Virus record (IMG/VR): IMGVR_UViG_3300025687_000092
Span: 1-42,978 of that record
DNA length: 42,978 bases
Origin: a virus
Direction: 5' to 3' (one strand)
In this document: positions 3,153-42,978 of the stretch, piece after piece
How the letters are laid out: each line of letters begins with the position of its first letter
Numbering within the stretch: the stretch's first letter is position 1
Notes under the pieces: model-generated
The model's input: only the letters and a program-made list of their open reading frames with translations
What the model was told of the DNA's origin: nothing
Databases searched by the model: none
Position numbers and translations under genes: made by a program

Positions 3153-3442
3153 TTGGAAAGACTGCCCTTGCGCTTACTGCCAGCGACACACCACCAGACA
3201 TACGCTCAGAAGCGCATTGGTGGGCAAATGCAGACGGTAACAGGGGTACAAAGATAGAGTATGACGGTGAGGAAAACGGGATTCATTGGTGGAAGTCGGG
3301 AAGGTGTCGGATGATGCTTAAATCTAAACCACCGCATTTAACGCCTGAAGATGTGCAACGATTGGAGTGGCGTATGAAGCAGTATTACGAGAGAGAGCGT
3401 GAACGAATGATAGAGTCATTCAAACAAGGTAGGCAATTATGA
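3128..3442 (+). CDS. Hypothetical protein, 104 aa
   Basis: The start at 3128 overlaps the nuclease-like gene by 25 bases and has a GGAGGG nearby. The product ends in a charged helix (QYYERERERMIESFKQG) and contains three Trp residues in HWWANAD and GIHWWKSG. No family recognised. It is linked by ATGA overlap to the next gene. Confidence 0.7.
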   Translation: MAYDIARMIGKTALALTASDTPPDIRSEAHWWANADGNRGTKIEYDGEENGIHWWKSGRCRMMLKSKPPHLTPEDVQRLEWRMKQYYERERERMIESFKQGRQL

Positions 3443-3750
3443 CAATAGGCGACTTATACGACAAGCTGGACTGGTCGAGAGCAGACAAAAGTTTAGCAGG
3501 GTGGAACAAGTCACACGGTGAAGAAAATATGTGTATGGATGCACAGGAGACACGTAGGCGCAGGTGCATCGTCATACACAACGCATTGACAGCAGGTGAC
3601 GCAGAGCGTCGTCAGTTTTGTATCAGGAGTTTGATGGGCGCAGGGGTATGGGGACAGATCGAAAACATATTGGAGGCTAACAGTGATAGTAAACCCGAAG
3701 AACCCGACAACAGCGATAGGGGCATTGCATCCACAGAAGGGGTGGCCTAA
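3439..3750 (+). CDS. Hypothetical protein, 103 aa
   Basis: The start overlaps the previous stop (ATGA) and the stop overlaps the next start (TAATG), so it lies inside a coupled chain of small genes. The protein is basic in the middle (QETRRRRCIVIH) and acidic at its C terminus. No domain recognised. Confidence 0.7.
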   Translation: MTIGDLYDKLDWSRADKSLAGWNKSHGEENMCMDAQETRRRRCIVIHNALTAGDAERRQFCIRSLMGAGVWGQIENILEANSDSKPEEPDNSDRGIASTEGVA

Positions 3751-3950
3751 TGGTGAAGATATACGGGAGGCAGACACCACAGTCAGGGGCAGTGTTGCTA
3801 CGAGAGATGGAAGAAGTGGGAACGAGCGAGGACGAACCAACAAACGCTGAGAAAGCAATGGCATATTTCGCTAACACGCACTACAAGGTGGCATTGTTCA
3901 GCGACAGAGAAATACCAGACATCGTGTATGTGAATAGGAGGTTTAAATGA
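3750..3950 (+). CDS. Hypothetical protein, 66 aa
   Basis: A small soluble protein with an acidic middle (EEVGTSEDEPTNAEKAM). Its start and stop each overlap the neighbouring gene by one to four bases. No family recognised. Support is the overlap pattern and an uninterrupted frame. Confidence 0.65.
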   Translation: MVKIYGRQTPQSGAVLLREMEEVGTSEDEPTNAEKAMAYFANTHYKVALFSDREIPDIVYVNRRFK

Positions 3951-4222
3951 AGATTGCGCCATATGTGCACCACCTGACACAGCAACCCAACTATCGGCTC
4001 AGACGTAAGGGTCCACGCAATTATAAAAAGTTGGTAGATCGTGGGTTGACAGTGCCTTTTGTGAGGATTTTAGCGAAGGAATGGGACACCGATTACGAAA
4101 CAGCACACAGGATGATACGGGAGAAACCACTTGATAACATTTACGATACCGGGCAAACCACAGCCCAAGCAAAGACCACGCACAGTTCGCAGGGGCAACA
4201 AATCTACCACATACACCCCTGA
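3947..4222 (+). CDS. Hypothetical basic protein overlapping rusA
   Basis: ATG 3947 overlaps the previous stop. Residues 1-65 look like a small basic helical protein (RLRRKGPRNYKKLVDRG). The last 30 residues lie in the 92 bases shared with the rusA gene in another frame and are low-complexity (TTAQAKTTHSSQGQQ), so the tail may be there only because the frame happens to stay open. An overlap this long is unusual beside the 4-base overlaps elsewhere in the operon. Confidence 0.6.
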   Translation: MKIAPYVHHLTQQPNYRLRRKGPRNYKKLVDRGLTVPFVRILAKEWDTDYETAHRMIREKPLDNIYDTGQTTAQAKTTHSSQGQQIYHIHP

Positions 4223-4505
4223 TGCCACGAAAAAAGCAGAAGATCGTATAAAGCAGATCGCACACATAACAATGCTACAAGCCAAACAAAAGCCTTTTGA
4301 GTGTCCAGTGTGCGTGACGATGACATTCCACGTAGAGAGAAGAGCAACGGCAACACCCGACTTAGACAATCTCGTAAAAGTTGTGGGCGATGCGATCAAC
4401 AAGGTTGTGTATAAAGATGATTCTCAAGTCGTGCTTATGGAGGCAAGAAAGTTTCAAGACAAAGAAAATCCGAGAACAATCGTCAGCGTATGGGGGGTAG
4501 AATGA
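4131..4505 (+). CDS. rusA: RusA-family Holliday junction resolvase
   Basis: The 124-residue product has the RusA features: N-terminal MITFTIPGKPQPKQRPR, the acidic motif TPDLDNLVK with Asp77 and Asp79, and YKDDSQV with Asp96/Asp97 as further metal ligands. RusA dimers cut four-way junctions, resolving recombination intermediates before packaging. Translation starts at TTG 4131 with GGGAG eight bases upstream; starting there keeps the conserved N terminus, and no ATG is available. It overlaps the upstream gene by 92 bases and the next by ATGA. Confidence 0.9.
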   Translation: MITFTIPGKPQPKQRPRTVRRGNKSTTYTPDATKKAEDRIKQIAHITMLQAKQKPFECPVCVTMTFHVERRATATPDLDNLVKVVGDAINKVVYKDDSQVVLMEARKFQDKENPRTIVSVWGVE

Positions 4506-4786
4506 ATATTAAAGATTTGGAAAAACAGCTATCGAAAGAAATGTTTAAGATTCGCGTAGAGGATGATATGACAATGGGGTATTTATACTTTTTGTCGAAC
4601 CAAGGAGAGATTGTGTATGTAGGGCAGAGTGTTAATCCAGAACAGCGAGTAAGACAACACACATTAGAGGGCCGGATAGCATTTGATGAAGCACACGCAT
4701 ATCCAACACACCAAGCCAAACTTGAAGAAATGCTAATCGTATCAACAATCAACCCCACATTTAACCAAAACACATGTGCGCTATGA
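4502..4786 (+). CDS. GIY-YIG family endonuclease
   Basis: The 94-residue protein has a GIY-YIG core: GYLYFL at residues 26-31, VYVGQS at 38-43, Arg49/Arg51, His53, a Glu at 75/76 in KLEEMLI, and a closing Asn-rich segment. The first tyrosine motif is degenerate (GYLYF). No separate DNA-binding domain is visible. It lies directly before, and overlaps by ATGA, the detached nuclease domain of the large terminase. Free-standing GIY-YIG enzymes can be homing endonucleases, so it may be linked to the split. ATG 4502 is preferred to 4490 because of the overlap. Confidence 0.8.
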   Translation: MNIKDLEKQLSKEMFKIRVEDDMTMGYLYFLSNQGEIVYVGQSVNPEQRVRQHTLEGRIAFDEAHAYPTHQAKLEEMLIVSTINPTFNQNTCAL

Positions 4787-5343
4787 GTGACCCTGTAATT
4801 TACCTGGGCTTGGACATCGCCACAGAGCGAGACACGGCGGCATTGGCAGGTGTGTACCAAGAAGAAGATCGTATGGTATTGTGGGGGCATCGTATTTGGG
4901 AACCGCCTGTAAACATACCCAATCAGGTATTGCCCACATTGACCCACCTATTAAAAAACCAACGTATCGGATGCTTGGCATTTGACCCCTACCAATTTAT
5001 CAGTGAGTCGCAACGACTTGTCAACGAGGGGTATGAGCATTTGTTACGAAAGATCAATCAATCATCAGAAAATGTGGCATTTAGTAACGTGTTGCATGAG
5101 CACATGAGGTCAAAAAAGTATATCCAATACACGGATAAGATACGACGCAACCACTACTCATGGGCAGTGGCAAGAGCCGGTGAGCGAGGGTTCAGTATTA
5201 AGAAGAACAAACAGACAAAGCACATCGACGTAGTGATTGCTGAAGCTATGGCGATATACGCATGTGCCGAGTCGTTGCAACACCACCACCATCCGAGTTA
5301 TTCAGAAGGCATCCACTCACGCTCAATACTGGCACTGCCATGA
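4783..5343 (+). CDS. Large terminase, C-terminal nuclease domain as a separate protein
   Basis: The 186 residues match the RNase H-like nuclease half of phage large terminases. A first strand IYLGLDIATERDTAAL carries Asp11; the second motif LAFDPYQ carries Asp68; Asp149 in KHIDVVIAEAMA is the third acidic position. There is no ATPase part; that is encoded 2.3 kb downstream at 7641-8600. Together they equal one normal TerL. There is no intein sequence at the N terminus, so the halves probably associate non-covalently. ATG 4783 overlaps the GIY-YIG stop. Confidence 0.85.
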   Translation: MSDPVIYLGLDIATERDTAALAGVYQEEDRMVLWGHRIWEPPVNIPNQVLPTLTHLLKNQRIGCLAFDPYQFISESQRLVNEGYEHLLRKINQSSENVAFSNVLHEHMRSKKYIQYTDKIRRNHYSWAVARAGERGFSIKKNKQTKHIDVVIAEAMAIYACAESLQHHHHPSYSEGIHSRSILALP

Positions 5344-5552
5344 CAGGACGATGGTATATCACCAAACACGCAGTAGACCAATACATCAAAAGGTTCAATG
5401 GTGTGAGCAGACGACACGCCATAGACCAACTTGTGGGCATCACAAGAACGGCAGAGCATTACGACACGAAGCCAACAGGTTTAGAGGTTTACAAGTCGGG
5501 AGATATGACATTGTTGGTCGATGCAGACCAGAGAGTGATAACCGTTTATTAG
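5340..5552 (+). CDS. Hypothetical protein, 70 aa
   Basis: ATG 5340 overlaps the terminase nuclease stop (ATGA). The protein begins MTGRWYITKHAVDQYIKRF and ends in strands MTLLVDADQRVITVY. This resembles a common small phage family with an N-terminal (I/V)T-HA-xxRY pattern; the function of that family is unknown to me. A longer in-frame start at 5262 lies inside the upstream gene and is unlikely. Confidence 0.75.
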   Translation: MTGRWYITKHAVDQYIKRFNGVSRRHAIDQLVGITRTAEHYDTKPTGLEVYKSGDMTLLVDADQRVITVY

Positions 5553-5561
5553 GGGCAGGCA

Positions 5562-6326
5562 ATGATAAGAATTAAAGACTACGTGCCACCAACATTGGCA
5601 GATGAGAAGGATATGACAGAGAACCAGTTGGTAGAGGCGAGCATACCCTTTGCTCTCACAAGGGCAAAGATGTATTGGGAGGCACACAAGGAAAAGGCGA
5701 GAAGCGTCGAAATGCAAGACTTAGTAGGTGCAGGTATGGAAGGTCTTGTTATTGCGTCAAGAAGATTTGACAAGTCACGTAACCTGAAGTTTATCTCATT
5801 CGCCCGATGGTGGATAGATCGGTGCATAATGCGGTGTATGGAACAAGACCTTGTTGTGCATAAGCCTGTCAATCGCATCAAAGACTACCAAGTGCTCATC
5901 GCCCATTCCAAGTCAACGGGTATGGACTTGTACGAATGTGCTATTGATTTGGGGTGGGATGACCACCAATACAACTGTGCTGTGACAGGCCACTCACCAC
6001 CTGTTAGGGGCAGTGCGGAGTATGACACGGACTATGCAGAAGAAATACCCTGTAACGACGATGTGTATGACGATATGAGTGAAAGTATATCGCAGATGTT
6101 GGAGTTGTTGTCTGCTCGTGAGGCAGAGGTGATATACAGCTACTTCTATATGGGTGAGCGTTTAGATGCCATAGGTAAACGTCTATGCCTTACGAGAGAG
6201 CGCATCAGGCAGATCAAAGAGGTAGCATTGAACAAGATGCGAAAAAAACACGGCAAAAAGGCTAAAGAGTTGCTTGTAAGCTGTGACAGCAGACCATTGA
6301 CATTTTTTGGGAAGGAGTTGTTTTGA
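5562..6326 (+). CDS. RNA polymerase sigma factor, sigma-70 family
   Basis: The 254-residue protein has sigma region 2 at about residues 22-98 (MQDLVGAGMEGLVIASRRFD, then KFISFARWWIDRCI) and region 4 at about 178-230 (LSAREAEVIYSYF, helix-turn-helix LDAIGKRLCLTRERIRQIK). The middle is a weakly conserved region-3-like segment. It should direct host core polymerase to phage promoters, most likely the structural blocks, where a shared non-consensus motif occurs at about 14.3 and 30.1 kb. It lies in the early operon; its TGA overlaps the next TTG start. Confidence 0.95.
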   Translation: MIRIKDYVPPTLADEKDMTENQLVEASIPFALTRAKMYWEAHKEKARSVEMQDLVGAGMEGLVIASRRFDKSRNLKFISFARWWIDRCIMRCMEQDLVVHKPVNRIKDYQVLIAHSKSTGMDLYECAIDLGWDDHQYNCAVTGHSPPVRGSAEYDTDYAEEIPCNDDVYDDMSESISQMLELLSAREAEVIYSYFYMGERLDAIGKRLCLTRERIRQIKEVALNKMRKKHGKKAKELLVSCDSRPLTFFGKELF

Positions 6327-7102
6327 TACATTTAGCGACGGAACGATTTGACGGGGGGCTGATACTTCGATACCACTCGCCAATGTTGGGTCACGACGAT
6401 GATGGCAACCCACTGATTTACGACTTAGAGGCAAGGCGCGTATGGGTAGGGGCTACATATCCCGACGCGGCAATGCAAAACAGAAAGACGGGGCATGGCT
6501 ACGCATGTGTGTTGGCAGAGAGGGTGTATTACAGTCGTAGCGATATGCCCGATGAGAGGGTGTATGTCATTATCGACGAGGCAGAGAGCGCAACAGCTAA
6601 CGAGTTGTTTGACAAGATCATCGCCCTGAAGGACAGGTATTACGTGTCGCAGGTGATCGCACCCGACCAGCCTATACACTTGTCTCAAGCATTGCAACGC
6701 TTAGAAGGTCTTACGCGATACCAGAAGGACATGCACAGGGCAGAGTGCAAGGCGCGATGGGCAACATTCAGAGACAAGAGCATGACAGCATCGGTAAGGA
6801 CAATGGCAATCCCCCACGCTGAGTCAGCACACAGGGGCATAGAGAACATATTGGCAACCAACGCACGAAACCCTGATACGGGCGAGGAAATTGTGGGCAG
6901 TGACGACAAACCCGTACCAAGACTGTATCTGCCGAGCAATTTCAAGAACAAGGTGGCGCGTCAGGAGATCACTCAGGAGTCTATGCCAGAGGTTACACAG
7001 GCGATATGGTTGGTAATGGCAGAGATGGAAAGGTCTAAACCTCCAAAGCCGAGAGATGAGTTTCGGGAAGAACGATCAACCAATAAGATAACGGGGTATT
7101 GA
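6323..7102 (+). CDS. Unknown protein between sigma factor and terminase ATPase
   Basis: 259 residues starting at TTG 6323, which overlaps the sigma stop and has GAAGGAG six bases upstream. Visible segments are a strand VYVIIDEAES followed by a helix, then SQVIAPDQP, and a C-terminal helical stretch ending in a Lys/Arg/Glu-rich tail. The strand-acid-helix pattern loosely recalls an RNase H-like fold, but I see no Walker A and cannot assign a family. Its place between the split terminase genes makes a packaging role possible, as inference only. Confidence 0.75.
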   Translation: MIHLATERFDGGLILRYHSPMLGHDDDGNPLIYDLEARRVWVGATYPDAAMQNRKTGHGYACVLAERVYYSRSDMPDERVYVIIDEAESATANELFDKIIALKDRYYVSQVIAPDQPIHLSQALQRLEGLTRYQKDMHRAECKARWATFRDKSMTASVRTMAIPHAESAHRGIENILATNARNPDTGEEIVGSDDKPVPRLYLPSNFKNKVARQEITQESMPEVTQAIWLVMAEMERSKPPKPRDEFREERSTNKITGY

Positions 7103-7103
7103 T

Positions 7104-7307
7104 ATGGAACACTCTGAAGTAATAAGTAGACTGGAAAGAACAAGAACCCGATGCGATCTGGTGATGCAAGACATAGACAGGATTGGGCTTGGTAATGATA
7201 CGCTACGGCATTGTCGGAACGAAGTTGCCATCAAAGACATAGCGGTAGCACTGACAGACGTTATAGACTTGATGTTAGAGTGTATGAACAATAAAACAAA
7301 AGGCTAA
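7104..7307 (+). CDS. Small helical protein, 67 aa
   Basis: Begins MEHSEVISRLERTRTRC and is predicted to be almost wholly helical. It starts one base after the preceding stop. It could be an accessory packaging protein, but nothing in the sequence shows that. Confidence 0.65.
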   Translation: MEHSEVISRLERTRTRCDLVMQDIDRIGLGNDTLRHCRNEVAIKDIAVALTDVIDLMLECMNNKTKG

Positions 7308-7314
7308 GAATGAT

Positions 7315-7638
7315 ATGGGACGCGACAGTAATATGACCTGCAAAACGTGTAAGAAAAATTATTACTTGGGTTACAATTCTTATTCGGGGTGGATTTATGC
7401 TTCTACGCTTGCAGAGTATGATGCCAAACCAGACGATTTAAAAAAACGGCGTGGCAACCAGAATTTAAGACAAGTCCTTGAAGAACACGAGGGTCATGAA
7501 ATGTTTGGCCCTTGGTCACACGATTACATGTTTAACAATAGGGGTGTCTTAGAGATGAATAGTGGGTATCACGTCGATAAAGTCATCGAAGATTATGGCG
7601 ATTACGAACAAATAAATATGCACGAGGAGGAGGATTAA
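7315..7638 (+). CDS. Putative small zinc-binding protein, 107 aa
   Basis: The N terminus has CxxC (MTCKTCKK) and a later HEGHE, which could bind zinc. The rest is aromatic-rich with an acidic tail. ATG 7315 and ATG 7333 are both possible; the ribosome-binding site is weak for each. Two bases separate it from the terminase ATPase gene, whose GGAGGAGG lies in its last codons. Confidence 0.65.
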   Translation: MGRDSNMTCKTCKKNYYLGYNSYSGWIYASTLAEYDAKPDDLKKRRGNQNLRQVLEEHEGHEMFGPWSHDYMFNNRGVLEMNSGYHVDKVIEDYGDYEQINMHEEED

Positions 7639-7640
7639 GG

Positions 7641-8600
7641 ATGCCACCAAGAAAATATCAAAACAAGATTGCCCACATATTGGCGAATGATTATGTGCTA
7701 CCAGAAACGGGCAAACCCATGAAGTTGGAGGATTTTCAGACGCGCATACTTAATCACGTATTCACTCCGCGCAAAGATGGGCGCATGCCATACAGGACTG
7801 TAATATTGTCAATGCCCAAAAAGTCGGGCAAGACAGAAATCGCCGCAGGTATTGCCTACGCTTGGGCGCGACACTTTGGGGGGGAAATTTATTCTTGTGC
7901 TAATGACAAAGACCAATCATCAGGCCGAATGTTTGATAGAATTTATAAGTCGCTGGATTGGTTGAAGATGAAAAACAAACAACGATACGACAATGAGGTG
8001 CTGAGACACAATTACGATATTATTGAGTTAGCAGACCCAAAGACAGACCGCCACCAAAAAAATCGACTGCCCTACGCAACCATAAAAGCACTTGCAGTTG
8101 ACTCCGCAGGTGAGGCAGGAGCACAGAACAGCTTGGTGGTGTTTGATGAAATATGGGGATATAAAACGGTAGAGGATGAGAATTTTTGGGAAGAAATGCA
8201 ACCAATCCCTACCATACCACACTCAACGCGCTTAGTTGTGACGTATGCAGGATATTATGGAATATCTAACCTTCTGTACGGAATCTATGAGAGATGCCTT
8301 AAGCCCGACCCTGAGACAGAAGAATATATGGGTATCAAGGCGAAAGGCTTGGAAGATTTGCCGTGTTATGTGGATGGTAGCACGTTTGCATATTGGGACC
8401 ACGTGGCACGTATGCCCTGGCACACACCAGAGTTTCTTGCGGCGGCACGAGCAGAGACACGCCCATCGGAATATCTGCGCCTGTGGGAGAATCGGTGGAC
8501 GACAGGACAAGAGGCGTTCATTGATATGGAACTGTTTGACGAGTTGTGTGTTATTGGAGATCGTGAAGGACGCAGAAATCACATGTTGGCAATACCGTAG
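7641..8600 (+). CDS. Large terminase, N-terminal ATPase domain as a separate protein
   Basis: 319 residues with Walker A SMPKKSGKT (residues 57-65), Walker B LVVFDE (165-170, catalytic Glu170) and a coupling motif TYAGY (201-205). It ends after RLWENRWTTGQEAFID and MLAIP, the position where related terminases pass into their nuclease domain (vxLGLDxxxxxD). That domain is missing here and is encoded upstream at 4783-5343. The protein should power DNA translocation through the portal at 15191. GGAGGAGG precedes the ATG. No small terminase is recognised with confidence. Confidence 0.92.
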   Translation: MPPRKYQNKIAHILANDYVLPETGKPMKLEDFQTRILNHVFTPRKDGRMPYRTVILSMPKKSGKTEIAAGIAYAWARHFGGEIYSCANDKDQSSGRMFDRIYKSLDWLKMKNKQRYDNEVLRHNYDIIELADPKTDRHQKNRLPYATIKALAVDSAGEAGAQNSLVVFDEIWGYKTVEDENFWEEMQPIPTIPHSTRLVVTYAGYYGISNLLYGIYERCLKPDPETEEYMGIKAKGLEDLPCYVDGSTFAYWDHVARMPWHTPEFLAAARAETRPSEYLRLWENRWTTGQEAFIDMELFDELCVIGDREGRRNHMLAIP

Positions 8601-8610
8601 GGGGTAGACA

Positions 8611-9099
8611 ATGACGGAGGAATTGTTACGTATACGCAAGGTGTTAGATAGTAATTTGGAGACAAGCAAGAAACTTGGGAAACAAATATGTGAAACAGGG
8701 AGCAAGCAAGCAGAGATAAACCGTATCATAAAAACAGGAAAGAAAAATGGGCCTATTTATGAAAAAAACATTAAGGAGAGGGAGCGATTAAAAAACGTCA
8801 TGGAGGTGTTAAAATCTCAGGCATCCAACCTAAAAGCTGAGAGGTCAAGATTAAGTACAGAAGAAGCGGTCGAGAGGGCAAAGATTAACCGTGGTGTGAC
8901 GGAGGAAGAATTAAACAACGACCCTGTGGGAACAGACGCAATCACCCTAATCGTTGCTTGCTTTGGAGAGTTTACGAAATTAGAGCGCAAAGGGGGATTG
9001 AGCGAAAGGGGCAGACTTATCATGCAAAAATTAGAACCAATAGTAGTAAGGAAACGCGCACAAGAAAATATGCTTAAAAGGCAAATTTTAAACGTATAG
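8611..9099 (+). CDS. Coiled-coil protein, 162 aa
   Basis: A charged helical protein with long heptad-like stretches up to about residue 95 (KERERLKNVMEVLKSQ) and a second helical part ending LKRQILNV. It directly follows the terminase ATPase gene. Helical oligomers next to TerL are sometimes small terminases, but no DNA-binding motif is visible, so that is speculation. Confidence 0.7.
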   Translation: MTEELLRIRKVLDSNLETSKKLGKQICETGSKQAEINRIIKTGKKNGPIYEKNIKERERLKNVMEVLKSQASNLKAERSRLSTEEAVERAKINRGVTEEELNNDPVGTDAITLIVACFGEFTKLERKGGLSERGRLIMQKLEPIVVRKRAQENMLKRQILNV

Positions 9100-9107
9100 G
9101 GGGAACA

Positions 9108-9524
9108 ATGCCAGATAAAAAAGTCACAGTGTCACGACTGAGCGACATTATGGTAGACGAATATTACCACGTTATCGGCACAGACAGTAGCGGTATGAAA
9201 ATCCCACCGCAGATAATACGCATACTTGAACCACCAATAAGAACATCAGGCTTTGGTGTACCAACAGTAAAGGTAGAGGCAATGGTAAAGTTGGGTGATA
9301 CGTTGCTGAGATATACCACCAAGTTTGACCTTTGGAGCATCAATGTTAAAGAGGGAGGCAAAGGCTTACTGACAGGGCATGGTGTCCACGACAGAGAGTT
9401 GGTAAGGATGGTTCACCCGAATGAGTTAAGAACATTTCTTGGTGACGACAGCTACAACGAAGCATTGCAGATGCAACGAGATATGAAGATTATTGTTGCC
9501 GACAAATGGGGCAACTTTAAATAA
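9108..9524 (+). CDS. Hypothetical protein, 138 aa
   Basis: Starts at ATG 9108 after AGGGGGAAC, eight bases downstream of the previous stop. A predicted beta-rich protein (for example RIMxPPIRTSGFGVPTVKVEA-type strands) with a helical C terminus. No family recognised. It is the last gene before a new promoter at 9550, so it may end the early operon. Confidence 0.7.
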   Translation: MPDKKVTVSRLSDIMVDEYYHVIGTDSSGMKIPPQIIRILEPPIRTSGFGVPTVKVEAMVKLGDTLLRYTTKFDLWSINVKEGGKGLLTGHGVHDRELVRMVHPNELRTFLGDDSYNEALQMQRDMKIIVADKWGNFK

Positions 9525-9549
9525 AAATATACCATTTACAACTTTATTA

Positions 9550-9578
9550 TTGACAATAATAGTTATGCGTGATATATT
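9550..9578 (+). promoter_or_regulatory. Sigma70-type promoter for the 9.65 kb genes
   Basis: TTGACA at 9550-9555, a 17-base spacer, and TATATT at 9573-9578: near-perfect consensus. The predicted start near 9585 gives a leader of about 65 bases before ATG 9650. That leader contains short inverted repeats (CACT/AGTG at about 9588-9600). Confidence 0.85.
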
Positions 9579-32999: not shown

Positions 33000-33995
33000 A
33001 TGAGTTTCTTTAATGGCCTGTTCACAGGCGCACAAGATACGGGTAGTAACATTGCTCGTGCTATTATGCTGAAACGCCAGAAGGAGATCGAAGATCAGCG
33101 CAGGTTGCAAGATCGGGAGTGGAAGCAACAAGACACCGAAACAGCACAGAGAAACCTGTTAGACCGAATGAGGTTTGGTCATGGCTACAACATGGAATTA
33201 CAGAACGACCAACAGGCATTTACTGGTGGAGAGAACGAGAAAGGCCGCCAGTTTCAACTGGACTTGTCAGGACAAAACCACACACAAAACCTCGCAGTCA
33301 TAGCACAGCAAAACAAATACCAATCAGAGCGCATGGACAAGCAGTTTGGTCACGACTCTGCACAGGCGAAGATTGCGCGTGAGTGGCAGATGAAACTTGC
33401 TGATGCTCAGAGAGATTTCTTAGGGTGGCAATCTAACGCTGACAGAGAGGCCAGGCGACGCGAAGGCAACCTAAACCGCGACATGCAAAAGTCTTTCTAC
33501 AACGATAACCAAGCATACCGCAATCAGGCATTGGGTGTCCAAAAGCAGTTGGGCATATTGTCTCAGCTTGAGAAACTTTTGCTCATGGCAGGTGATGACC
33601 CTGCAAAGCAAAAGCAGATACAGGTATTTGGTACGCGACTGCTTACAGAAGGTGCTTCATCGGGCGCAGGTGGCACAGACGCAGAACTTGACGACATCAA
33701 CAAAACATTGGATGCCGTGTTCAACCGCACATCGGCATCTGCCCAGGTTCCTTCTGCCACACCTGAAGCTACACCTGCCGGACGCGTCATACCCTCACTG
33801 TTCTCTCGTATCAATCCAGACGCAAGTATTGGCTCTTACGAAGAATATGCAAAGCGTGTTGACGACTTAATAGACAGAGGCGAGTTAAAATGGGACCAAA
33901 GAGGTCAGGCATTGCAAGAAGGCAAACGCATACTAAACCCAAGTATTGAAAATCGGTTTATGGAAAAACTACGCCAAAGCGCAGGATGGTATTGA
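33000..33995 (+). CDS. Helical virion (ejection-type) protein, 331 aa
   Basis: The N terminus MSFFNGLFTGAQDTGSNIAR leads to long charged/Gln-rich helices (RQKEIEDQRRLQDREWKQQD), then a Thr/Ser/Pro linker and a C-terminal domain (YEEYAKRVDDLIDRGE). Two bases after the previous gene and overlapping the next by one base (TGATG), so co-translated. Ejection-protein identity is inferred from position and composition. Confidence 0.65.
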   Translation: MSFFNGLFTGAQDTGSNIARAIMLKRQKEIEDQRRLQDREWKQQDTETAQRNLLDRMRFGHGYNMELQNDQQAFTGGENEKGRQFQLDLSGQNHTQNLAVIAQQNKYQSERMDKQFGHDSAQAKIAREWQMKLADAQRDFLGWQSNADREARRREGNLNRDMQKSFYNDNQAYRNQALGVQKQLGILSQLEKLLLMAGDDPAKQKQIQVFGTRLLTEGASSGAGGTDAELDDINKTLDAVFNRTSASAQVPSATPEATPAGRVIPSLFSRINPDASIGSYEEYAKRVDDLIDRGELKWDQRGQALQEGKRILNPSIENRFMEKLRQSAGWY

Positions 33996-35281
33996 TGCCT
34001 ATTACACCCGAACAAGAAGCACTTAGAGGGTTGATAGAAAAATACCCACACAGGGCATCCGAGATAGTGCGAAGGTTTATCACTATGCGCGATTCCGTCG
34101 CAAAGATGCGACAAAAGCCACTTGAGCCTCGACCATCTGACCCCGACATTTTAGTGGGCGACGAAATGCCCGAAGATGTGTCGTTAGGCAGTCCGAGCGA
34201 AATACCATTGGAGCCAATAAGACCTGACGTGCCACTTGAACAGGTTGTATATGGAGAAAACCCTGAAGATACTAATATATCACAGAGAGCAGACTTGCCA
34301 TTAGACTCGCCTCTTGCGCGAATTTTTAATCTCAGCTTTTTAAGGCAACGTCCCGACGTGCCATTGGCAAATTCTGAATATATTGAGGAACCGGAAGATA
34401 GTAACATTCCGCAACCGTCCTCATTGCCATTAGACCCTATAAGACCTGACGTGCCATTAGCGAACACATTTCAAGACGACATCCCTGAAGATAAGGGCAT
34501 CCCAAAATCGCCTGACTTAAGGTTAGAAACGATGCGACCTAATGTGCCATTAACCGACGTAGTGGGCGATGAGATACCCGAAGATGTGAAAATGTCGTAC
34601 ACCAACTTACCTATGGAAACTTTAAGGCCATCAGTAGAAATGTCCAGAGCCGATTTTGCCGATGAACCCGACGAGATACAGGTGGACTTCACCGAACTCC
34701 CGCTTGAAGATGTTACTATTGATATGCTCAAGAAAACACAGGAGGTTGCCAAGAACCCAATACTTAGCGATGGCACAGGACTTGTCAGCATTGGTGCGTT
34801 AAAAAAATACCACAAACCCAACGGTAAATACGAGGTAATAGTAGACCTTAATACCAATACCTCTACCCTAATGAAAGACAATAAAGTTATTAAGCAGTTT
34901 GCCATAGCAACGGCAGACACGGGTGGCATAATGCATGGTGGAGTTAAAAAACAAACACCGTCGGGAGAGACAACAATCAAAACCAAAGTGCCTTACCCTC
35001 TTACAACAAAGTCAAAAAATTCGTATGGACCATATTGGATGGGGTTAGGTGATGATGGAGACACTTTTGACCATATAGGATTTCATGGCCCCTACTACCA
35101 AGATAAAAAAGTATTTGACGATGACGGAAATTTCTTAAACAGTGGCAGATTGTCAGCAGGTTGCATACGTTACAAAGTAAACGACCTTAATGAACTTGCC
35201 AAGTATGTTAAAAACGGGACGAGAGTCTATGTTATTGGATTCGACAAGCCTACCCCTGCTCAAAGATTGGTGAACAGATAA
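33995..35281 (+). CDS. Virion-associated protein with L,D-transpeptidase (YkuD) domain
   Basis: 428 residues. N terminus MPITPEQEALRGLIEKYP is shared with the next gene. Residues 76-216 hold five copies of RPDVPL-like repeats (at 76, 119, 150, 181, 211). Residues about 276-415 form a YkuD domain: HGGVKKQTPSGETT, DHIGFHG (His364), and SAGCIRYKVNDL with Cys390 and Arg392. YkuD enzymes make or exchange peptidoglycan cross-links through this cysteine. In an ejection block it may act on the cell wall during DNA entry. ATG 33995 overlaps the previous TGA. Confidence 0.85.
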   Translation: MPITPEQEALRGLIEKYPHRASEIVRRFITMRDSVAKMRQKPLEPRPSDPDILVGDEMPEDVSLGSPSEIPLEPIRPDVPLEQVVYGENPEDTNISQRADLPLDSPLARIFNLSFLRQRPDVPLANSEYIEEPEDSNIPQPSSLPLDPIRPDVPLANTFQDDIPEDKGIPKSPDLRLETMRPNVPLTDVVGDEIPEDVKMSYTNLPMETLRPSVEMSRADFADEPDEIQVDFTELPLEDVTIDMLKKTQEVAKNPILSDGTGLVSIGALKKYHKPNGKYEVIVDLNTNTSTLMKDNKVIKQFAIATADTGGIMHGGVKKQTPSGETTIKTKVPYPLTTKSKNSYGPYWMGLGDDGDTFDHIGFHGPYYQDKKVFDDDGNFLNSGRLSAGCIRYKVNDLNELAKYVKNGTRVYVIGFDKPTPAQRLVNR

Positions 35282-38200: not shown

Positions 38201-40218
38201 CCACAGAGGTTATGATCAGAGATCGTGACCTTTTCCCCACAGAGAAGCGCATCAGCGACAAGGGCGACGGTAAAGGCCCAACGCGATATGCCTTTATGGA
38301 TGGGTTAGAACAGCGCACCTATACAGATGCCAATGGCAACAAAACATTCATTACCGACATCGACGACTTGCGACGCATTGCAGACCCCAACATACAAAGC
38401 GTCAAAGAACAGGCCGATGGCAGTATGCGTATTCCTGCTTGGTGGATTCCGTATATTGAGCGCATAAAAACACTCACTGACACCTTTGCAGATGCGGCAA
38501 CTGCCGCCGAGTTGCGAATAAAGATTGGCGATGAGGTTGTGCCATGGACTCCGCGAGAATTGTACGCGCCATTTATCCACGACCCCAAGCTATATGACGA
38601 CCCCAACTGGATAAAATCTCAAATATCAGAACTGATGGCAAAGAATGAGGAATGGTCTGTTGCAGATGCTGAGGCACATGTCAAGCGGTTGGTGGACTTA
38701 CGCAAAAAACATGCCAGAAGCTACGCAAACCTCGAATCACGACGCGAGATTACACCGCTTGAAGGGTATGTCGTAAACCCACTGATTCGTTATGGGCAGT
38801 ACTTCATGCGCGCATCTGAGCGCATCACGGATGCACACCTCTTTGGCAATTTCAACCAAGAGGCACGAGCACTGATTACTGAGGCCAAACTGCAAGGTGG
38901 TGACGACTTCATCGAAAAGGTCTTTGACCGTGTGTTGGGATTGGAAGATCGCGCCCTGCCCGGTTCCACACAAGAAGCCTTTGAGCATGTTGCTGACAAG
39001 ATGAAGATGTGGACAATGATCACCAAGATGGGCATGTCGTTTTTGCCACAGATGTCTCAGATTGTAAACACTGCCTCTATGACGGGATATATAGATACGT
39101 TGCGTGGCTTATCTGCTATGATACGCAAGGCAAACAAAGACGTTGTTGAGGACTCTTTCGCTGTCGCCGTAGAGACAATTAGGGGCAATGTGGCGCAGGA
39201 ATTGGGCTTAAAAACCACAGAGTTTCCCAAGTGGGCTGTATGGTTAAAGGCGTTTTCAAAGACCGATGAGTTGGTACGTAACTGGTCAGCAAATACAGCA
39301 GTGGTATATATCAACCGCAACCTTGAGAGATTGGTCAAAGACCCAAGCAATATAGATGCCCAGCTTGCCCTTAAAGAGTTGCGTATAGACCCACAAAAAG
39401 CATATTCCGCATATTTGGACAGAGAGGCAAATCCAAAGGGGTGGGATAAGATGTTGGCCCTTGGAGCAAACACCCTCTCCAAAGAAACACAATTCTTGGC
39501 ACGACCAGAGACATTGCCATACTTTGCAAAAAGCCCTCTCGGTGGCCTTGTCACACAGTTCAAGACGTTCACATTGTTTCAGGCAAACTTCCTAAACAAG
39601 CACATGAACTTCTTACGAAAGAACGACCCTGCAAGGTGGCGAAAGGTAAAGAACGCCATTAAGTATATGGTAGGTGCTACCGTTGTCGGTGAAGGTGTTG
39701 CAGATGTTAAAGGTGTTATATCAGGTGTGAAGCGCGAGGAATGGGATGATGACGATGCTTTGCCATGGGAACGCATCTTGTGGAACATCTCAACAGTCGG
39801 TGGGTTTGGTATTGGCGTGGACATGCTACGTGCTATGGCAGAAGGGCGATACTCTACGGCTGAGTTGTTGATCGGTCCAGCAATGAGCCAGGTTGTACGC
39901 CTTGCCGCAGACAACACATCAGCAGTTGCACAACTCAGCAAATCCGTCATCGACGATGGGGAGTTTGATTGGTCTAAACTTTCAGGGGCTATGCGTACGA
40001 ACATTGGTGCTATGCCAATCGGTATTAATACTCAGATAGCAAGACGCATTGTAACACCAGAGAAAACACGTTGGCAATATGTAGACCCTTTGGAAAAAGG
40101 TGGTATCGAGCACATATTGACAGGCAAAGACCCCGACCCTATGGCGCAGTTCGAGCGACAGAAGAAGAAGATGCGCGAGGAGATGCGGAAGATGATGGCA
40201 AGATACCAACCAAACTAA
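35281..40218 (+). CDS. Giant internal virion/ejection protein, 1645 aa
   Basis: Starts MPITPEQQAVVDDLMLKYP. Residues about 75-255 have Gly/Ala/Leu-rich membrane-like segments (GLGSLAGMAPSLVGTMGLAG, YAGLMGGVTGATVGGAVA, and one near GTTMGAGALAGAVSS). The middle is soluble and mixed. The last 400 residues (MTGYIDTLRGLSAMIRKAN, GGLVTQFKTFTLFQANFLNK, MVGATVVGEGVADV) resemble C-terminal parts of large polyvalent phage proteins. Size, membrane segments and place fit a T7 gp16-type injected protein. It ends convergently, overlapping the integrase gene by four bases. Confidence 0.7.
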   Translation: MPITPEQQAVVDDLMLKYPSQIPKIMEYVKNYEQQNEGTLSRSWDLASNSFMRELPMGFGDELGLSDPNQPEARNIVESAASGLGSLAGMAPSLVGTMGLAGVGGRILGRAVPALAKKVGSETAKRVLLEGGVGATHAALSKQEGETGFFDQDFGQSAYAGLMGGVTGATVGGAVAKLNSADSKLAETVANTMKSYFTNKTAQNAAIRGTTMGAGALAGAVSSAPFMMAEGGTPEQVLIQSLAMGLLSGFEALPKKYLSEVRNGEIGNIVNAVKAEGRRLTPEESAKIIELSRDMPGGKERVDGVLAEVENSFYQNQKAQASAMAQSQMPGMNAYLEGQRPNVEFDTNIEFDNAIKNVYNLVDIPDRARRQRELSDTFREIQGREYERIFNDEDLRAIHQKSLSKPLDDEVARKKLSDAYGKARTTLDKNPELFDWLQQNRADEPSPKQIIEAEPWTIDARNAETHRLREDARKTKLQFALQHTSTGGAHGGIQNNGKKVVGWDPSVISTAKEVAERELKKAKGPEVDDWQWVVQRLNEEGGKVTNVKTYEQLYDNGTVTEIAQPLPNTTSPQRTDAPITTQYEQGISQYQQLVDEIDELRKDPSTPPEVIAKKQDQADELGEQLQEAQEFKESYTKRPPKSSKAQAAKAFTPTKSVGAATTLNTDPREVLRSSDKGAEVLALLDRKGIDPNELDEWLALTPAMRGKGLDYLSEEHLDAFLLMHDDAPSIFGSNTLGKVIHNTRKVIDSMADYVKALGNRTMQEADEIGLIDIDSFHDMTDMLDGTSTQPKNAQELLERGLIMRSGDVYRLTNEGKRAIGGRMLVQYGHRDTKDFVPGTILELTETGQNASQGASPLYFDEMVIRKNANGKYEPVFQADADLATLKLDTGQLVLQGEQGGIMSVGNRQYQMQPGDIVVRKPAALQLSDKLALRQKTADLMTGSALRDFRHIYDDLLAEIESRGLDAGEELIDRPTEVMIRDRDLFPTEKRISDKGDGKGPTRYAFMDGLEQRTYTDANGNKTFITDIDDLRRIADPNIQSVKEQADGSMRIPAWWIPYIERIKTLTDTFADAATAAELRIKIGDEVVPWTPRELYAPFIHDPKLYDDPNWIKSQISELMAKNEEWSVADAEAHVKRLVDLRKKHARSYANLESRREITPLEGYVVNPLIRYGQYFMRASERITDAHLFGNFNQEARALITEAKLQGGDDFIEKVFDRVLGLEDRALPGSTQEAFEHVADKMKMWTMITKMGMSFLPQMSQIVNTASMTGYIDTLRGLSAMIRKANKDVVEDSFAVAVETIRGNVAQELGLKTTEFPKWAVWLKAFSKTDELVRNWSANTAVVYINRNLERLVKDPSNIDAQLALKELRIDPQKAYSAYLDREANPKGWDKMLALGANTLSKETQFLARPETLPYFAKSPLGGLVTQFKTFTLFQANFLNKHMNFLRKNDPARWRKVKNAIKYMVGATVVGEGVADVKGVISGVKREEWDDDDALPWERILWNISTVGGFGIGVDMLRAMAEGRYSTAELLIGPAMSQVVRLAADNTSAVAQLSKSVIDDGEFDWSKLSGAMRTNIGAMPIGINTQIARRIVTPEKTRWQYVDPLEKGGIEHILTGKDPDPMAQFERQKKKMREEMRKMMARYQPN

Positions 40219-41087
40219 AACCTGTCACCGGGCGAAAACCTGTCGTGTTGGTGCTTTATGTTCTTACCTGCAATCTTTGTGTACCTACTCGTCATGTGCT
40301 GAGTCTCATGACCGAGCAGTTTTTGTAATGTGAACGGGTCGCCACCTGCCATTATCCAGTTGACAGCAAAGGTATGACGCAAACGGTGGGGGTGTAGGTG
40401 TATGTCCAACTTATCGGATATACGCTGAAACGCTTGCTGTAACGCTCTCGGCTTAAGCCTGAAGCCCGATCTTGTGAGCCACAGCGCAGATTCGTGAACA
40501 CTGGCATACTTGGCTCTTAAGGCCATATACTCACGCAGAGAACCCAAAGACTTCTTACCAAAGGGCAACCATTGTTCTAATCCACCCTTACGAGTGATAC
40601 GCACCATACGATCAGACCATTGAATATCGCCTATGTCTATGTTGGTACATTCACGCAACCGCATACCGTTGTCTAACATAAGCCTTACTATTGTGCCATT
40701 GCGTCGATCATCGTAACCCTTGCACCGGCTCAGGTGGTCTATGACTCTTACAAGTTCTTCATCGGGCAACGGGTCCGGCGACTCCTTGGGTGTCGGTATT
40801 CTCGGCAGGTCAGGCATATCTACATAGTGGTATAGAGCGCAAAACTTATAAAACGCTCTCAGGCCACGTAGCTGTGCGTGTATCGTGCTATTAGACAATT
40901 TGGGGGATGATTGTCGCAAAGATACGAAATAGGGTCTTATATCACCCACAGATTGCTCTAACGTGCCACCCTTTAAATACCTTTGGTATCTATCCAATAC
41001 ATACTGATAAAATTCGAGGCTTTTGGGGCTGACACCTGCGATCTCACGGTCTTGGATGAACGACCTTTTTGCTTCGGCAAAAGTCAT
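40215..41087 (-). CDS. int: Tyrosine integrase
   Basis: 290 residues. N-terminal core-binding SAM-like domain (about 1-85, SPKSLEFYQYVLDRYQRYL), catalytic domain from about 105 with Arg143 (NGMRLREC), Lys167 (TRKGG), His234-x-x-Arg237 (HPHRLRHTF), His260 (LLGHE) and Tyr269 (TSRYT). It should integrate the phage at the tRNA-Thr sequence found 60 bases upstream. ATG 41087 with GGAG upstream is chosen over the in-frame GTG at 41099. No excisionase was recognised. Confidence 0.95.
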   Translation of the reverse strand: MTFAEAKRSFIQDREIAGVSPKSLEFYQYVLDRYQRYLKGGTLEQSVGDIRPYFVSLRQSSPKLSNSTIHAQLRGLRAFYKFCALYHYVDMPDLPRIPTPKESPDPLPDEELVRVIDHLSRCKGYDDRRNGTIVRLMLDNGMRLRECTNIDIGDIQWSDRMVRITRKGGLEQWLPFGKKSLGSLREYMALRAKYASVHESALWLTRSGFRLKPRALQQAFQRISDKLDIHLHPHRLRHTFAVNWIMAGGDPFTLQKLLGHETQHMTSRYTKIAGKNIKHQHDRFSPGDRF

Positions 41088-41149
41088 AATCAGACGCACT
41101 CCACAAGGTAAATACGATATAACTTGTTGTTTTATATGGGGGAGTTATC

Positions 41150-41201
41150 CACCTGATTTGTAATCAGGCGGTCAGCGGTTCGAATCCGCTGGACGGCTCC
41201 A
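41150..41201 (+). other. attP core: 3' part of tRNA-Thr(TGT)
   Basis: Reads CCTGA-TTTGTAA-TCAGG (anticodon arm, 41152-41168, anticodon TGT), variable CGGTC, T arm AGCGG-TTCGAAT-CCGCT, acceptor strand GGACGGC, T and CCA (41199-41201). The 5' half is absent: upstream bases show no D arm and no GCCGTCC. Such a 3' part next to int is the usual attP; insertion would rebuild the host tRNA. The anticodon arm gives inverted core sites around a 7-base TTTGTAA. Confidence 0.85.
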
Positions 41202-42811: not shown

Positions 42812-42978
42812 TTGAGCGCACAAACACTATCACAAAACGTCATCGGACAAAAGGACTTTTTGAACCTCATTAAAGTAAGGAACGAGTTGGATGAGATTAG
42901 CGTAGAACTGGACGACAATTTTACTGAAGAACCCGACCTTGATCAACTTCTTGGTTCGGCACTGATGCACGTAGAATC
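42812..42978 (+). CDS. Small early protein, 5' part (continues at 2)
   Basis: TTG 42812 with AAGGAG at 42798-42803. The frame reads SAQTLSQNVIGQKDFLNLIK and continues across the circular junction to the stop at 203-205, 70 residues in all. In the left copy the Lys of GQKD is Val. No family recognised. Confidence 0.7.
   Translation, partial: MSAQTLSQNVIGQKDFLNLIKVRNELDEISVELDDNFTEEPDLDQLLGSALMHVE
42820..42978. repeat. Terminal overlap of circular genome (right copy)
   Basis: Repeats 1-159 with two adjacent substitutions at 42851-42852. See the left copy for interpretation. Confidence 0.93.

Follow-up and report, generated by a model that had tools for sequence, protein, structure and literature searches.

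A family of viral genomes with the two domains of the large terminase encoded by separate, unlinked genes

The subject of this work is the large terminase subunit (TerL) encoded by IMG/VR virus record IMGVR_UViG_3300025687_000092, a viral sequence of 42,978 bp that was analysed along its whole length and is referred to here as the window. TerL is almost always a single protein, and its switch between pumping and cutting is usually attributed to the two domains being coupled in the same polypeptide. In the window, the two domains lie in separate open reading frames (ORFs) and in inverted order: the nuclease gene comes first and the ATPase gene follows, with other genes in between (Table 1). The first-pass annotation of the window had described this arrangement, and it stands: a second contig (IMGVR_UViG_3300025889_000915) aligns to window positions 3427–9566 in one block, at 99.5% identity and with the same gene order, and the order is therefore real rather than a one-off assembly error. 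The window ends in a direct terminal repeat of 159 nucleotides (nt) with two mismatches (positions 1–159 and 42820–42978), and so probably represents a complete genome. The two mismatches fall at adjacent bases of the repeat (32–33), perhaps reflecting population variation or an assembly error.

Table 1. Features of the window discussed in the text (aa, amino acids; AF2, AlphaFold2).
Feature	Position	Strand	Basis
Small conserved gene	3439..3750	+	tblastn; between the 6323–7102 homologue and the portal gene in relatives
GIY-YIG nuclease gene, 98 aa	4490..4786	+	PF01541, E 2.4e-6, above cut-off
TerL nuclease (RNase H fold) gene, stand-alone	4783..5343	+	phrog_9, invariant Asp, AF2/Foldseek, fused-TerL match
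Sigma-70-like factor between the two halves	5562..6326	+	Sigma70_r2 and r4; phrog_351, E 4.9e-24
Conserved neighbour of the nuclease gene, 259 aa	6323..7102	+	AF2, Foldseek; TerL-nuclease-like predicted fold
TerL ATPase (motor) gene, 319 aa, stand-alone	7641..8600	+	phrog_9 match, conserved end point, fused-TerL match
Small conserved gene just after the ATPase gene	9108..9524	+	tblastn; between the ATPase and nuclease genes in relatives
Portal protein gene, 757 aa	15191..17464	+	phrog_156, E 2.4e-5; served to collect the phage family (61 viral loci)

The two TerL genes of the window

The identities proposed for both genes in the first-pass annotation are borne out by profile matches and motifs, and for the nuclease also by fold prediction. 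The ATPase protein matches positions 184–342 of phrog_9 (terminase large subunit; E 3.6e-23), corresponds to the N-terminal half of fused TerLs, and contains both a Walker A motif (SMPKKSGKT) and a Walker B motif (LVVFDE), within which PKKSGKTE and DE are invariant in our ATPase alignment (set A4). This combination of Walker motifs and a TerL ATPase profile match identifies it as the ATPase part of a TerL. Its match to the Pfam TerL_ATPase model is below threshold (E 0.011); the Pfam TerL models are, on their own, too weak to call either of the window's two TerL proteins.

The nuclease ORF (4774–5343) encodes 189 aa if read from the ATG at 4774 and 186 aa from the ATG at 4783, the latter being the more likely start. 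It matches phrog_9 positions 481–666 (E 3.7e-8), such that the two halves cover successive stretches of the profile without overlap. All 23 nuclease homologues match phrog_9 (best E 1.9e-19), and 19 of the 23 also match PF20441 at E ≤ 0.1 (best 8.5e-8), the window's own protein being sub-threshold for that model. Four aspartates—Asp11, Asp17, Asp68 and Asp149, counted from the Met at 4783—are invariant across the 23 homologues; three of these (Asp11, Asp68 and Asp149) had already been picked out as key residues. An AF2 model built with 22 family homologues as input (predicted local distance difference test score (pLDDT) 88, predicted template modelling score 0.83) was compared with the PDB using Foldseek: ranks 1–22 are all TerL chains or TerL nuclease domains, with the HK97 TerL (6z6d) first and the G20c TerL nuclease also among the matches. 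The protein thus has the predicted RNase H fold and the three catalytic aspartates of a TerL nuclease. Against named phages, the nuclease half gave no match at E 1e-5; at a lax cut-off, the best matches are TerL genes of Streptomyces, Lactobacillus and Microcystis phages.

The RNase H fold is a common one, and a TerL-nuclease-like fold is also predicted for the neighbouring protein 6323–7102. On that ground, 4783–5343 could be taken for an RNase H-like enzyme with no relation to TerL, for instance a resolvase, the packaging nuclease being another protein such as 6323–7102. We consider this very improbable. The resolvase RuvC does not appear in the fold matches before rank 41, behind the TerL nucleases that head the list; a profile of the nuclease family matches the C-terminal half of fused TerLs, mostly with E-values of 1e-20 to 1e-37; and the catalytic aspartates that are invariant in 4783–5343 are not conserved in 6323–7102. 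Fold prediction thereby disposes of a possibility that the first-pass annotation had itself raised as fatal to its proposal. The other such possibility, an intact TerL in the same genome, is likewise contradicted: across the 42,978-bp genome, no full-length TerL was found: searches with PF03237, PF20441 and phrog_2 returned nothing, and phrog_9 returned the two halves only.

A single, old split in the phage family

Relatives of the window were gathered by starting from the major capsid protein and proceeding to a portal alignment, yielding about 60 viral contigs (61 portal loci). Scanning viral contigs with either half singly gave nothing beyond the near-identical contig, and among named phages neither half alone reaches close relatives, returning just weak matches, mostly to TerL genes. 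The contig names suggest that the family comes mostly from marine samples. Six further records (L017, L018, L019, L022, L023 and L025) have capsid proteins of 33–36% identity, and most of them carry an ordinary single-gene TerL of the phrog_2 type.

Outside the species of the window, 31 records have the nuclease in an ORF of its own, mostly of ~190–240 aa (in L097 the open frame reaches 353 aa, the upstream frame happening to be open, while the L073 ORF is truncated at the contig end). An ATPase scan adds five records with both genes (L123, L124, L126, L127 and L128), giving a total of ~36 related viral contigs in which the nuclease is a separate gene. On contigs that also include an ATPase gene, this gene likewise stands alone and encodes ~320 aa, and the ATPase ORFs of the clade all stop within about 20 residues of one common end point. 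In neither the window nor any member of the clade are both domains found in one polypeptide; this includes relative G041, which has a 123-nt terminal repeat, is probably a second complete genome, and yielded no fused TerL when searched with the split-family profiles. Intact TerLs, which the first-pass annotation had proposed seeking in related genomes, are found only in more distant phages.

The two genes lie at very different distances from one another, measured on contigs that may be permuted. From ATPase end to nuclease start, the distance is 0.9 kb in L051, 1.5 kb in G047, 2.5 kb in L055, about 16–17 kb in G046 and G035, and about 21 kb in G041; in G042, G037 and G033 the ATPase gene is instead downstream of the nuclease gene, by more than 20 kb. 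Two layouts recur: (i) ATPase, small gene, nuclease, 6323–7102 homologue, small gene, portal, and (ii) nuclease, 6323–7102 homologue, portal, capsid and tail genes, with the ATPase gene further on. The compact nuclease-then-ATPase layout of the window, with RusA, GIY-YIG and sigma factor genes mixed in, is shared with the near-identical contig and was not seen in other relatives; this close inverted order looks derived, a local reshuffle specific to the window's lineage. In several relatives, the ATPase gene is found upstream of the nuclease gene, and the earlier suggestion that the cutter is made first does not hold as a rule.

More than 50 more distant viral contigs carry a single ORF, of ~480–580 aa for most, in which the ATPase profile match is followed by the nuclease profile match; among the fused ORFs checked, those with non-overlapping matches have a linker of 10–23 residues between the two. 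The nearest fused relative is L135 (43% identity across the ATPase). These fused TerLs of the phrog_9/HK97-like type (L135–L197; HK97 6z6d) have the same two domains, profile order and catalytic residues as the split family, but in one polypeptide rather than two proteins. Rows with split genes group in a single clade in the ATPase tree as well as in the nuclease tree (Shimodaira–Hasegawa-like approximate likelihood ratio support of 100 in each), indicating a single and ancient origin of the split. Inclusion of very distant TerLs leaves this grouping in place, with support of 100 for the ATPase. One ATPase row labelled as split fell outside the clade (L186); this gene is cut by the contig end.

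The two halves have diverged in parallel (Mantel r 0.81, p 0.001, for nine genomes; r 0.95 for 13 genomes), a pattern expected if they are components of one machine that are inherited together. Ratios of nonsynonymous to synonymous substitution rates between L051 and L055 are 0.06 for the ATPase and 0.03 for the nuclease; both halves are kept by purifying selection.

Since more distant TerLs, including those of HK97 and phiC31-like phages, are fused, the simplest account is that one ancestor underwent the fission. Taken together, the sequences, the predicted folds and the comparison with relatives establish that the split is widespread, conserved and of single origin, with the motifs of both halves intact, and this phage family very probably has a large terminase of two proteins that stem from one ancient fission at the inter-domain linker. 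Several points weigh against this interpretation: (i) the trees are unrooted, and taking the fused form as ancestral rests on the presence of fused TerLs throughout the more distant homologues, (ii) once very distant TerLs are included, the split nucleases still lie on one side of a branch, but its support is just 41, (iii) most family records are fragmentary, and some contigs do not include the ATPase gene, (iv) a portal-family search of GTDB genomes gave no member, and hence no host assignment, and (v) the physical association of ATPase and nuclease is something that we infer.

Splicing, homing and other divided terminases

The halves might be rejoined after transcription or translation, by a trans-spliced intron or a split intein, such that the working enzyme is again one chain. 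There is precedent: in ICP1, the Jug phages and Microcystis phage Mic1, terL is interrupted by an intron or intein, often with homing nucleases nearby, and is made whole by splicing. The TerL-coding parts of herpesvirus UL15 are similarly separated by other genes, and differ from the present clade in that its exons are joined via mRNA splicing. In the window, an Rfam search found no intron; the ATPase gene stops directly after its domain, the nuclease has its own start, and the same boundaries are seen clade-wide with no intein-sized extension at either break, in agreement with the earlier statement that no intein is present. With no splicing element found, and with a gene order so free that order and distance differ by more than 20 kb among relatives, rejoining of the halves is highly unlikely.

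The GIY-YIG gene adjoining the nuclease gene was earlier suspected of having broken terL. Its stop and the start of the nuclease gene lie in a 4-nt overlap (ATGA at 4783–4786), which suggests that the two genes are translationally coupled, and homing enzymes are known to fragment phage genes, terL included (PMC10448857, PMC12363816). However, no GIY-YIG homologue was found in the ~36 split relatives, both trees give the split a single origin, and the GIY-YIG protein has just 98 aa, in which no DNA-binding module is seen. Nor does the locus have the features of a gene interrupted by a homing endonuclease: the GIY-YIG gene is absent from the relatives, and neither an intron nor an intein-sized extension is present. 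The split is thus older than the arrival of the GIY-YIG gene beside the nuclease gene in the window's lineage; that gene is a bystander that cannot explain a clade-wide split, and breakage of terL by it in this phage is the least likely of the alternatives.

In Arthrobacter cluster AY phages, the two TerL domains are encoded by separate, consecutive genes (PMC11920828, PMC12820723). The AY phages (e.g., BillyTP genes 2 and 3) resemble the present clade in having TerL ATPase and nuclease as two genes, but the BillyTP genes overlap and are consecutive in the normal order, while those of the present clade are 0.9 to more than 20 kb apart and sometimes inverted. Neither the window, where the genes are inverted and non-adjacent, nor its relatives, where they are non-adjacent, show the AY type of consecutive ATPase–nuclease pair. 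The AY halves also fall outside the present clade in the trees, with the BillyTP nuclease pairing, on long branches, with the fused TerL of Streptomyces phage Heather. In a partial coverage of the literature, we found no paper describing an unlinked or inverted terL split. A two-gene TerL is therefore already known from the AY phages, while the unlinked, order-swapped version is new as far as we have found.

Assembly in trans and the neighbouring genes

Under the reading of an ancient fission, an ancestral single terL would have been cut once, at the linker joining the ATPase and nuclease domains; the pieces would then have become independent genes that later moved apart and, in the window's lineage, were reordered around the sigma factor and replication genes. 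The halves would then have to act in trans, in line with the earlier proposal. The ATPase would form a ring on the portal and drive DNA in, and the RNase H nuclease would be recruited in trans for the initial and terminal cuts, either through the old inter-domain surface or via the conserved neighbour 6323–7102.

The AF2 model of this neighbour has a pLDDT of 90, and TerL nucleases lead its Foldseek matches in two libraries, at modest template modelling scores (0.26–0.5). Profile comparison with the nuclease shows no sequence homology, and other sequence profiles give no link either; the likeness thus rests on fold only. In place of the TerL catalytic aspartates, Glu86 and Asp104 are invariant, Asp85 and Glu66 are nearly so, and most full-length family members have a conserved TGY at the C-terminus. 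A homologue lies between nuclease and portal in relatives whose contigs extend there, and none was found near the fused TerLs. The protein is a possible third component of packaging, perhaps a TerL-nuclease-like protein that is inactive itself and assists in positioning the true nuclease. A more specific proposal is an order-free terminase of three parts, in which a stand-alone motor and a stand-alone active nuclease are complemented by a noncatalytic 6323–7102 that would tether or gate the cutter at the portal and so stand in for the lost covalent link; this we regard as conceivable, yet rather unlikely. Two small stand-alone proteins in BFVD have a fold resembling that of 6323–7102: Q9G0I4 (Roseobacter phage SIO1 gp2) and A0A0K1LM17 (Caulobacter phage Sansa). 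On predicted fold, they are possible further detached TerL-nuclease-like proteins.

A clade with unlinked motor and cutter genes implies that the covalent linkage is dispensable, and offers a natural system in which motor and cutter activities can be separately removed or titrated. Marker-gene surveys built on the expectation of a full-length TerL will overlook such phages or place them wrongly.

Among the remaining genes, that for the sigma factor has more distant counterparts in relatives G041 and G048, there encoded on the opposite strand. A tyrosine integrase (window positions 40215–41201, minus strand) adjoins a tRNA-Thr gene, and the phage is therefore probably temperate, perhaps with a tRNA attachment site. 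Finally, the C-terminal part of the protein encoded at 33986–35281 resembles, by eye, an L,D-transpeptidase (YkuD-like, with an SAGCIRY motif), and a homologue of this protein is encoded directly upstream of the portal gene in L051.
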